Source of the DNA: an uncultured Prolixibacteraceae bacterium
GTDB lineage: Bacteria; Bacteroidota; Bacteroidia; Bacteroidales; Prolixibacteraceae
Reading direction: 5' to 3'
Length of the DNA stretch: 64,000 nucleotides
NCBI GenBank assembly: GCA_903834475.1
Contig: CAILJH010000062.1
Coordinates: 1-64,000 of the forward strand
In this document: piece after piece, positions 8,197 through 48,223 of the stretch
Numbering within the stretch: the stretch's first letter is position 1
How the letters are laid out: every line of letters starts with the position of its first letter
Program-made: the position numbers and the translations under genes
The notes under the pieces: generated by a model
What the model saw: the letters and a program-made list of their open reading frames with translations, nothing else
Database searches by the model: none
What the model was told of the DNA's origin: nothing

Positions 8197-8204
8197 TAAC
8201 TTTG
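8197..8204 (+). promoter_or_regulatory. candidate clpP promoter element (TAACTTTG)
   Basis: TAnnTTTG match 75 bp before clpP. It lies inside the left arm of the tig/clpP hairpin (8198-8259), so promoter and terminator overlap; no clear -33 TTG is seen. Confidence 0.35.
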
Positions 8205-8259
8205 TGAAAATCTGAGTCTGCCAATTGAAAGGCAAGTCCGATTTTCACAAAGTTTTTTT
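8198..8259 (+). terminator. tig terminator with perfect 15-bp stem
   Basis: AACTTTGTGAAAATC (8198-8212) is perfectly complementary to GATTTTCACAAAGTT (8240-8254), followed by a T-run to 8259. An inner GCC/GGC stem lies in the loop. Typical intrinsic terminator or attenuator between tig and clpP. Confidence 0.8.
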
Positions 8260-35706: not shown

Positions 35707-36684
35707 TCATTTCAGTTTATCTTCGATGATCATCCCCAAAACATCACCTAATTTTCGGTCCATGGCTGCAATTTGCTGCGGAACGAAGCTGGTGGAGGTC
35801 ATGCCGGGGGTGGTATTGACTTCGAGAAAATAAAATTCATTGTCTTTCAGGATATAATCGATGCGGACAATTCCGGAGCAATCACACAAATCATAGATGC
35901 GTGATGAGAGTTGCTGTACTTTTTGAGTCAGCTCAGGTGAAATGCGTGCAGGAGTAATTTCATCGGTTTTTCCGGCAGTATATTTGGCTTCGAAATCGAA
36001 AAACTCGTTTTGCGGAATGACTTCAGTGACCGGGAAAATCAGTTCCTGATCAGAAAGTTTGACCAGACCACAGGTGAATTCTTTTCCGTCGATAAACTGT
36101 TCGATCAGGATGTCTGCGCTTTCAGTCATGGCATGTTTCAATGCATCTAAAAGTTGATCTTTCTCCTTTACTTTAGTTACCCCGAAGCTTGATCCGCCGG
36201 CATTTGGTTTTACAAACAAGGGCAAGCCAAGCTCTGCAATGAGCTGATCCGCATCCGCGTGATCGCCCTTGAACAAGCGAACCGATTTAGCCATCGGAAC
36301 ATTGAAATTCCGGAGGTAATTGCTGCAAAAATATTTATTGAAAGTAAGCGCAGAAGAATAGACACCACAGGTGGAGTAGGGGATTTTCACCATATCGAGA
36401 TAGCCCTGTAGTTTACCATCTTCGCCGGGAGTTCCATGAATAGTGATGTAAGCAAAATCGAAGTTGACTCTTTTGCCATTCCGGATAAACGAAAAATCGC
36501 CTTTATCAATCGGAGTAAATGGTTCATCGTTTTCAAAAACAACCCATTCCAGGCCTTTCATCTGGACTTTCCAAACATTGTATTTGGCAGGATCAATTGA
36601 CTGAAATACATTGATGCTGCTTTTGACCGAAATCACAAATTCGGATGAGTCACCTCCATAAACAACTGCAATATTCTTCTTCAT
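35707..36684 (-). CDS. ddl: D-alanine--D-alanine ligase
   Basis: 325 residues from MKKNIAVVYGGDSSE; the frame extends 10 residues to 36714, but that extra text is derived from the flanking inverted repeat. ATP-grasp fold: IHGTPGEDGKLQGYL, KPNAGGSSFGV (glycine loop), and FLEVNTTPGMTSTSFVPQ (metal and substrate residues). It joins two D-alanines for peptidoglycan precursors. In related genomes ddl directly follows rluD; here the repeat-bounded GxxExxY cassette lies between them. Confidence 0.94.
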   Translation of the reverse strand: MKKNIAVVYGGDSSEFVISVKSSINVFQSIDPAKYNVWKVQMKGLEWVVFENDEPFTPIDKGDFSFIRNGKRVNFDFAYITIHGTPGEDGKLQGYLDMVKIPYSTCGVYSSALTFNKYFCSNYLRNFNVPMAKSVRLFKGDHADADQLIAELGLPLFVKPNAGGSSFGVTKVKEKDQLLDALKHAMTESADILIEQFIDGKEFTCGLVKLSDQELIFPVTEVIPQNEFFDFEAKYTAGKTDEITPARISPELTQKVQQLSSRIYDLCDCSGIVRIDYILKDNEFYFLEVNTTPGMTSTSFVPQQIAAMDRKLGDVLGMIIEDKLK

Positions 36685-36694
36685 TTTTAATAAG

Positions 36695-36718
36695 TTTTGA
36701 ACCACATAGAACACATAG
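36695..36718. repeat. inverted repeat, left end of the GxxExxY cassette
   Basis: TTTT then GAACCACATAGAACACATAG. Its reverse complement occurs at 37154-37177 with one mismatch in 24. Unit CACATAG is repeated within the arm. Confidence 0.85.
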
Positions 36719-36719
36719 T

Positions 36720-37133
36720 TTATTCTATAGGCAGTTTTCTGAAATATTCCGTAACAAATGTTTGTTGACCATCTTTAAATAAATTCAAACAATTGAAATT
36801 GATTAATATACCCTTGGGCTTTTTTAAAAGTTTCAGGTAAGATAATAATTGAGCTTCATGAATTGGCAATATCACATCGACTGTTTTTAATTCAACTACA
36901 ATCAGATTATTCACCAATAAATCGAACCTGAGTTCACATACTAAGTCTAAACCCCTAAAATTCAGAGGAACTGATTGCTGTCCGACAACAGTATATCCAT
37001 TCTGGATTAATAGATGAGCCAGGCACTTTTCGTAAATACTTTCCAGTAACCCAGGACCAAGTTCCTTATGAACCTCAATGGCGTAACCAATAATTGCCCG
37101 ACTTAATGTGTTAACATCCTTTTGAGTGGTCAT
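36720..37133 (-). CDS. GxxExxY protein (PD-(D/E)XK nuclease-like)
   Basis: 137 residues. Family motif GPGLLESIY with Gly28, Glu31, Tyr34, and a PD-(D/E)XK-like triad Asp71 (FDLLV), Glu81 and Lys83 (VVELK). No characterised activity; family members occur in many copies per genome in Bacteroidota, Planctomycetota and cyanobacteria. It lies in the same orientation as rluD and ddl and separates them, enclosed by 24-bp inverted repeats. Nuclease function is inference from the fold. Confidence 0.9.
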   Translation of the reverse strand: MTTQKDVNTLSRAIIGYAIEVHKELGPGLLESIYEKCLAHLLIQNGYTVVGQQSVPLNFRGLDLVCELRFDLLVNNLIVVELKTVDVILPIHEAQLLSYLKLLKKPKGILINFNCLNLFKDGQQTFVTEYFRKLPIE

Positions 37134-37153
37134 AAATTACTAAAATAAATTTT

Positions 37154-37177
37154 CTATGTGTCCTATGTGGTTCAAAA
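37154..37177. repeat. inverted repeat, right end of the GxxExxY cassette
   Basis: CTATGTGTCCTATGTGGTTC then AAAA. It is the reverse complement of 36695-36718 apart from one base and begins directly after the rluD stop codon. Confidence 0.85.
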
Positions 37178-38239
37178 TTATTCGTTTATCCGGTTACTCA
37201 GGTAATTCCGCCATTTTACAATCACATTGGCCAGATCATCCGGAAGTGCCGATTCGAATATCATTTCTTCGCCGGTTACCGGATGCACAAAACCCAGCAT
37301 TTGAGCATGCAGCGCCTGTCGTGGAATCATTTCAAAACAATTGGCAACAAATTGCTTGTATTTGGTGAATGTTGTTCCTTTGAGAATGCGGTCGCCACCG
37401 TAATTGTCGTCGTTAAACAGCGGATGTCCAATGTGTTTCATGTGCACCCTGATCTGGTGTGTCCGTCCGGTTTCCAGGCGACATTCAACCAGATTCACAT
37501 ATCCAAGCCGTTCGATGACTTTGTAATGTGTAACCGCAGGTTTCCCATAATCTTCGTCAGGGAAAACGGTAAAGACCTGCCTGTTTTTCAGGCTTCGGCC
37601 AATATTTCCTGTAATGGTTCCTTCGTTATTTTCCATGTCCCCCCACACCAGGGCAACGTATCTGCGCTTGGTCGTTTTTTCGAAAAACTGAAGTGACAGT
37701 TTTACCTTGGCTTCAATAGTTTTAGCAACAACCAGCAAGCCTGAAGTGTTCTTGTCAATCCGGTGGATGAGTCCCGGACGCGGATCGTCGGAATTGAAAA
37801 GCGGAAGTCCCTTGAAATGAAAAGCCAATGCATTAACCAGTGTTCCGGAGTAATTTCCGTGACCGGGATGGACAACCAATCCGGCAGGTTTATTGACAAC
37901 CATCACATCATCATCTTCATAGACAATATTTAAAGGAATGTCCTCTGCGATTATTTTAAGTTCGCGACGTGGATAATCCATCATGATCGAGATTTCATCT
38001 CCCGGTTTAACTTTGTAACTCGATTTTACGGCCTGTTTGTTAACCAGGATATTTCCCGCATCAGCAGCTGATTGAAGTCGGCTTCGGGTAGCATTCAGCA
38101 GGCGGTTCGAAAGAAATTTGTCGATCCGAAGCAAGGATTGCCCGGCATCAACAATTATGTTGTGATGTTCAAACAGGGCGCCGTCTTCGGTCTCTTCAAG
38201 TTCTTCAAATTCGTCAATCAATTCGTTTTCGTCTATCAT
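37178..38239 (-). CDS. rluD: 23S rRNA pseudouridine synthase RluD family
   Basis: 353 residues. Acidic N-terminal extension (~1-30), S4 RNA-binding domain (~35-95, LRIDKFLSNRLLNATRSRLQ) and RluA-type catalytic domain with Asp162 in HRIDKNTSGLLVVAK. Makes pseudouridines in helix 69 of 23S rRNA if orthologous to RluD. The start abuts the PASTA gene stop with no gap, so translation is coupled. Confidence 0.92.
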   Translation of the reverse strand: MIDENELIDEFEELEETEDGALFEHHNIIVDAGQSLLRIDKFLSNRLLNATRSRLQSAADAGNILVNKQAVKSSYKVKPGDEISIMMDYPRRELKIIAEDIPLNIVYEDDDVMVVNKPAGLVVHPGHGNYSGTLVNALAFHFKGLPLFNSDDPRPGLIHRIDKNTSGLLVVAKTIEAKVKLSLQFFEKTTKRRYVALVWGDMENNEGTITGNIGRSLKNRQVFTVFPDEDYGKPAVTHYKVIERLGYVNLVECRLETGRTHQIRVHMKHIGHPLFNDDNYGGDRILKGTTFTKYKQFVANCFEMIPRQALHAQMLGFVHPVTGEEMIFESALPDDLANVIVKWRNYLSNRINE

Positions 38240-48186: not shown

Positions 48187-48223
48187 AAAAACCCCTTTCA
48201 TTGCTGCAATGAAAGGGGTTTTT
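48187..48223. terminator. strong bidirectional terminator
   Basis: AAAAACCCCTTTCATTG (48187-48203) and CAATGAAAGGGGTTTTT (48207-48223) are perfectly complementary over 17 bp with a 3-nt loop. It ends the M16 peptidase gene on the minus strand. Confidence 0.9.

Follow-up and report, generated by a model that had tools for sequence, protein, structure and literature searches.

A GxxExxY gene between inverted repeats of short units at rluD-ddl in a Prolixibacteraceae genome: a candidate gene-bearing form of a two-part element

Homing endonucleases include I-Ssp6803I, which is an enzyme of the PD-(D/E)XK type. It is mentioned in PMC3943268, and a further system that resembles the locus described below is the REPtron, namely a RAYT (TnpA-REP) gene placed between REPs, together with dispersed REPINs, for which a Y1 transposase is used (PMC3116915, PMC3733652). 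Dispersed short palindromes are also known in the form of CGTC-tagged REPs, which count the Bacteroidetes among their phyla and have no dedicated transposase (PMC3733652). Finally, the 23S intervening-sequence protein (S23, PF05635; PMC4990558) is encoded by a small single ORF lying between inverted repeats, within a stem-loop of the 23S rRNA.

This report concerns a 483-bp unit found in a window of 64 kb, i.e., the whole stretch of DNA that was analysed, from an uncultured Prolixibacteraceae bacterium. The single gene of this unit belongs to the GxxExxY family, a widespread, multi-copy and uncharacterised group of proteins for which we know of no role. No link of this family to repeats was found, and the name PDDEXK_3 was not met, in the open-licence literature, a scope that makes either absence weak evidence; PMC8934634 mentions GxxExxY, its topic being other than repeats. 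Our reading is that the 483-bp unit is probably the gene-bearing form of a two-part element, akin to both REPtrons and homing systems, with a nuclease that acts on its own repeats. What would be new here is the combination of a repeat-flanked gene and dispersed non-autonomous hairpins with a catalytic protein unrelated to those of the known systems.

The unit lies between rluD, encoding a 23S rRNA pseudouridine synthase (37178-38239, minus strand), upstream, and ddl, encoding a D-Ala-D-Ala ligase (35707-36684, minus strand), downstream, and these two neighbours later serve as yardsticks of silent-site divergence. An inverted-repeat search recovered its arms at 36695-36718 and 37154-37177, each of 24 nt, complementary at 23 of 24 positions (96%) and separated by 435 nt, as a first-pass annotation of this DNA had described them. 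No second arm pair with at most one mismatch and within 600 bp occurs in the window, none of 40 dinucleotide shuffles produced a comparable inverted pair, and the 20-mer GAACCACATAGNACACATAG is present twice in the window versus 0 expected. The upstream arm, on the 5' side of the gene (37154-37177, minus strand), reads TTTTGAACCACATAGGACACATAG and has CACATAG units at 37169-37163 and 37160-37154, while the downstream arm (36695-36718, plus strand) reads TTTTGAACCACATAGAACACATAG, with units at 36703-36709 and 36712-36718; each is thus built from TTTTGAACCACATAG followed by a second CACATAG, at a unit spacing of 9 bp. The sole gene between the arms (36720-37133, minus strand) encodes the GxxExxY protein of 137 aa, and one base separates its stop codon from the downstream arm. 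The placement given in the first-pass annotation also holds: one arm adjoins the rluD ORF at its stop, the other ends 10 bp short of the start codon of ddl (ATG, at 36684), and the ten-codon ddl extension that it called spurious arises from a mechanical ORF that begins inside the arm. The intervening 10-bp spacer (36685-36694, minus strand; CTTATTAAAA) is conserved, with no more than one change, in every relative that has the cassette, which is not so at junctions that are empty or carry only a hairpin. The two-unit build of the arms (CACATAG twice) and the dispersed hairpins discussed below had been overlooked.

The protein matches TIGR04256 (E 3.3e-36; 124.2 bits against a cut-off of 35) and PF13366 (E 5.7e-35; 120.6 bits against a cut-off of 22), and not PF01797, the Y1 HUH transposase profile, which agrees with the earlier identification of the enclosed gene as GxxExxY. 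In an alignment of 22 diverse family members, G28, E31 and Y34, which form the motif that names the family, are invariant, as are D71, E81 and K83, i.e., the D...ExK triad of the PD-(D/E)XK superfamily, along with Q95 and Y99. The AlphaFold2 model (pLDDT 92) has its nearest fold in the Cas4 protein SSO0001 (PDB 4ic1; Foldseek E 2.5e-3, probability 1.0), with Z 9.1 over 107 residues and an rmsd of 5.0 in the VIA comparison. Weaker matches are to lambda-exonuclease-type proteins and to the archaeal Holliday-junction resolvase Hjc (Z 7.3, where a Z below about 8 may mean no more than a shared fold), and a sequence search against solved structures returned no significant match. The likeness to Cas4 consists of this best fold match and of the D, ExK and QxxxY motifs; however, the GxxExxY protein is shorter, its alignment has no invariant cysteine where Cas4 has the four conserved ones of its Fe-S cluster, and no CRISPR gene adjoins it. 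On this basis, the protein is a member of the PD-(D/E)XK nuclease fold of the RecB/Cas4-like kind, and a predicted nuclease. Its gene is under purifying selection, with dN/dS values of 0.02-0.11 between intact rluD-ddl copies and an invariant active site.

The arrangement of gene and arms is shared by most of the family. The home genome has three further full GxxExxY genes, and all three have inverted repeats of short units on both sides, differing in sequence (CGCAGAG, CGCTAAG/CGCAAAG, and an AGGATT type, respectively). It also has a fragment (L036, G000:C22:196-285), which is short, has an early stop codon and appears to be a remnant. For wider sampling, loci were picked by protein similarity, without regard to repeats. 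Of 33 loci in the home genome plus 60 relatives, 25 reach an inverted-repeat score of at least 28 between their flanks, versus 0/59 control windows shifted by 900 bp for the relatives' loci (maximum 25). The same score is reached by 60 of 80 named loci from many phyla, for which the shifted controls (n=146) peak at 30, their 95th percentile being 24. A unit-pair test, in which two or more pairs of C[AG][CT]NNA[GTA] heptamers spaced 7-13 bp were required in the flanks, was positive at 79/113 loci, drawn from the home order, many other phyla and one archaeon, versus 6/201 control windows taken 400-1400 bp away at the same loci. The enrichment is large (odds ratio 75, p 3e-39), and since the heptamer form was derived from these same loci, the argument rests on the control windows and not on the p-value alone. 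About a quarter of the loci fall under the inverted-repeat threshold, several of which nonetheless have unit pairs. These counts, a kind of survey that the first-pass annotation had proposed, make it very probable that a GxxExxY gene and its flanking repeat are linked.

The unit type varies with lineage, from CACATAG here to CACAGAG, CACAGAT, CACAAAT, CGCTAAG and others elsewhere, and it is co-inherited with the protein. When the last three letters of the unit were used as a label on the protein tree, 27 changes were needed, versus a mean of 43.7 after shuffling, and none of 200 shuffles was as low, with the GAT and AAT types tightly clustered. Because part of this result is due to orthologous cassettes that several genera share at one locus, it speaks for linkage, not for repeated co-adaptation. 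The likeness to REPtrons is that of a conserved, lone small gene between inverted short repeats, with several gene-repeat pairs per genome, each having its own repeat type. The differences are that the protein is of the PD-(D/E)XK type (PF13366) and not a Y1 HUH tyrosine transposase, that the arms are multi-unit and have no GTAG tag at the palindrome end, and that the unit stays near one general form (CACxxAG/T) across phyla. Regarding insertion sequences and MITEs, the cassette has no transposase. In these same genomes, PF05635 genes (L181-L210, relatives; four-helix-bundle or 23S intervening-sequence proteins) also have their own inverted units of about 7 nt in their flanks, 19/30 loci scoring at least 28 versus 0/58 controls, and some of them have a GxxExxY gene no more than a few kb away. 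They are a second, parallel class that resembles the one described here in the small ORF between inverted repeats, and differs from it in the four-helix bundle, for which no nuclease fold is known, and in the units themselves.

The second feature shared with REPtrons is that repeat pairs without a gene are dispersed between genes in the home genome. A pattern search for ACCACATAGNNCACATAG with at most 2 mismatches located 23 matches there, versus 0 for the reversed control, mostly as short inverted pairs, intergenic, about 45-75 bp long and with no gene inside; two dispersed pairs, folded as single strands, give stable hairpins (z -5 and -7). These palindromes resemble the CGTC REPs in being short, dispersed and flanking no RAYT (PMC3733652), and differ from them in having no CGTC tag and in having a candidate cognate gene. 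Read by eye, 19 of about 20 CATAG pairs have 2-base spacers between units that differ from arm to arm while the units match, a pattern that would fit unit recognition better than selection for stem pairing alone, albeit as a weak argument because the search pattern itself demands the units. One CATAG hairpin of G000 (L009, G000:C44) sits within a longer tandem repeat (about 146 bp), and a related hairpin locus is present in G021 (L217, G021:C94).

Within the genus, genomes that carry the cognate gene are richer in dispersed hairpins for two repeat classes, with few independent contrasts. CATAG copies number 14, 1, 16, 20, 5 and 14 in the cassette genomes and 0-5 in the others (p 0.003 by a Mann-Whitney test, and 0.009 when the arms of the cassette itself are not counted, shared ancestry being uncorrected), and the supported branches provide one phylogenetically independent contrast only. 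G007 is an exception, having an intact gene, a damaged upstream arm, a match in its own downstream arm only and no dispersed copies, and several gene-free genomes also hold copies. The first-pass annotation had named repeats scattered at random, independently of the gene, as evidence against a mobile cassette; copies apart from the gene do exist, whereas their arrangement as paired hairpins speaks against randomness. For the other class, CACAGAT copies number 21, 11, 104, 11, 27 and 6 in genomes with the cognate gene and 0-15 in the others (p 0.003, again with shared ancestry uncorrected), several genomes without the gene holding 8-15.

The 104 CACAGAT arm matches are those of G016, a cognate-gene genome in which a recent burst has produced about 50 hairpins. 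The 16 that were sequenced have the common core ACCACAGATTACACAGAT...ATCTGTGTAATCTGTGGT, which TTC precedes and GAA follows in nearly every case, and are centred in outer inverted repeats that vary from copy to copy, the outer arms scoring 39.0 with their own partner versus 19.8 in mismatched pairs (p 4e-6). GAATTC occurs on both sides in 6/16 and may be part of the palindrome. A good uninterrupted outer palindrome centred on GAATTC was not found in G016 (one place comes near, with 3 mismatches), so the outer arms may travel along as a composite; the hairpins may either have inserted into older ones or have spread jointly with these arms. Three of these hairpins lie inside or beside CATAG arms (L228, L317, L331), so that the two repeat classes are nested. 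The outer arms (e.g., L322, L324, L333) also have a longer motif in common near TTTAAATTTTTACTTTTTAGACACCTTC, which suggests a larger composite dispersed element.

The history of the rluD-ddl junction could be followed across the genus, where the comparison proposed by the first-pass annotation found relatives in three states. The cassette is present in six genomes (G000, G021, G007, G011, G017 and G018, the last with a frame-breaking change in the gene), a gene-free, hairpin-like CATAG element in G002, G008, G014, G016 and G022, and neither of them in several others; the hairpin-only junctions begin at differing bases, roughly 5-30 bp past the stop of rluD. On the ddl tree, whose support is weak in places, the cassette bearers need 4 changes. 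The dS of the GxxExxY gene is 0.20-0.48 in all cassette pairs, whereas that of ddl, and of rluD where computed, is 1.0-2.1 in non-sister pairs (pairs with G007 rest on ddl dS and DNA identity), and DNA identity in the non-sister pairs is 88-94% for the gene versus 79-83% for ddl. Windowed identity is elevated over the cassette and drops to about 66-85% within ddl, and the tract of low divergence stops at the arms or close to them, the left drop in G007 falling at the arm itself. Synonymous constraint was rejected as the source of the low values, since the sister pair G011/G017 has equal dS in rluD (0.38), the GxxExxY gene (0.40) and ddl (0.38). Because the gene dS is far below the flank dS, the cassette entered, or was exchanged at, rluD-ddl after these lineages split, i.e., it arrived horizontally or was exchanged in the non-sister lineages. 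Pure vertical descent, which would have told against a mobile unit, is accordingly retained for the sister pairs G000/G021 and G011/G017 and excluded for the non-sister lineages by their silent-site divergence. The exchange step itself may have been driven by a nuclease or have been ordinary recombination. The earlier idea of a single-gene cassette thus stands with regard to a gene-and-repeat unit that is horizontal at rluD-ddl, and falls short in that it would describe the gene-bearing form alone, within a system of two parts.

At most other loci, the gene was inherited vertically. At loci A-C and E, the GxxExxY gene and its flanks mostly have dS values that are alike, or that are saturated in both, so vertical descent is dominant there. 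At locus D, the place that holds a cassette in G018 and G020 is occupied in G021 by one of a different class (56-58% amino-acid identity), and the flanking proteins are at least 90% identical. Comparison across genomes covered 3690 of the 4644 bases of a combined hairpin query, with all of its pieces except L225 and L014. At one locus, G021 has a hairpin only and G024, of another genus, a hairpin and a GxxExxY gene, with an extra right arm and duplicated adjoining bases in G024. At C71, a hairpin-bearing stretch of about 79 bp in G000 and G021 corresponds to 3 bp in G011 and G017, with no clear duplication at this divergence, and at C168 and C163 replacement of the intergenic stretch has left no clean empty site; no exact strain-level pair with an empty site was found. 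In agreement with the first-pass annotation, which had seen no evident target-site duplication, none that is convincing was found at the rluD-ddl junctions, in the C71, C168 and C163 comparisons, or around the 16 G016 hairpins.

These observations also define the likeness to homing of the I-Ssp6803I type: the protein is a small PD-(D/E)XK nuclease, as predicted here, the gene may interrupt a repeat that is found uninterrupted elsewhere, and dS points to horizontal entry at a fixed site beside conserved genes. The cassette differs in having no intron or intein, its site being an intergenic palindromic hairpin with many genomic copies. In the two-part element that we propose, one part would be a gene for a PD-(D/E)XK nuclease from the GxxExxY family, and the other its cognate inverted repeat of short direct units, also present as dispersed gene-free hairpins. 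The protein would bind units of its own class where they occur in pairs, and would cleave DNA that has formed a hairpin or a cruciform; repair of the break would copy hairpins into new intergenic sites, and carry the gene into sites that already bear, or resemble, its hairpin. An action of the protein on the repeats is plausible, and we infer the binding, cutting, movement and repair route.

Among the alternatives, the hairpins could be an independent host or parasite repeat, such as hairpins at 3' ends, in or between which GxxExxY genes happen to land. We regard this as unlikely: it agrees with the existence of intergenic hairpins that contain no gene, with their persistence in some genomes where the gene is missing, and with CACAGAT hairpins nested in other repeats, but it would not lead one to expect that most family members are flanked on both sides, that every GxxExxY lineage keeps to a repeat type of its own, whatever the genus or phylum, or that copies are more numerous where the cognate gene is present. 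Less probable again is that ordinary homologous recombination swapped an rluD-cassette-ddl allele through the conserved flanks while the nuclease was idle. The conservation of rluD and ddl, and the similarity of both junction sides among most cassette bearers, would suit such a swap; the return of identity to about 66-85% within ddl, and the drop at the left arm in G007, would not, and the family-wide repeats and dispersed hairpins would be left unexplained.

A mover acting in trans, i.e., a RAYT or another transposase encoded elsewhere, is marginally less credible than such a swap. Y1_Tnp genes are common in the genus, with five matches in the home genome, and REPINs of RAYTs are alike in general anatomy (PMC3116915), yet the two home-genome genes with clear flank repeats (L213, L214) have the GCATAGGGCAA / CCCTGAAAGGGCG type and not CACATAG, the arms have no GTAG tag of RAYT REPs, and Y1_Tnp occurs in all the genus genomes searched, whether these have 0 or 20 CATAG copies. 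A RAYT was rejected as the mover on the ground of those unrelated flank repeats. Finally, it is highly improbable that the host retains the protein for its own benefit, as a nuclease of defence or repair, with the repeats as its regulatory or autocleavage sites; strong purifying selection, long vertical retention at several loci and the fold, similar to RecB, Cas4 and lambda exonuclease, would agree with this, while the lone gene in a housekeeping operon with no defence partner genes, its patchy presence at rluD-ddl, and the dispersed gene-free copies, which would need a separate explanation, argue against it.

If the two-part element proposed above is taken beyond this genus, GxxExxY proteins might be a second, RAYT-independent class of repeat-associated enzymes, which would recognise the multi-unit inverted repeats that belong to them and would spread both gene-free hairpins and a gene that homes into hairpin sites, in many bacterial phyla and some archaea, a generalisation to which we give an even chance. 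If true, it would reveal what a large family of uncharacterised proteins does, give the RAYT/REPIN systems a nuclease-based counterpart, provide a source for short dispersed palindromes that lack a known enzyme, and account for lone GxxExxY genes in housekeeping operons. The linkage of gene and repeat gives each member of the family a testable candidate substrate.

Two other inverted repeats of the window are terminator-like. At 8198-8254, past the end of a gene, a stem of 15 bp (AACTTTGTGAAAATC) encloses a loop of 27 bases and a T run comes next, and a perfect 18-bp inverted repeat, AAAAACCCCTTTCATTGC, with a 1-base gap lies at 48187-48223.
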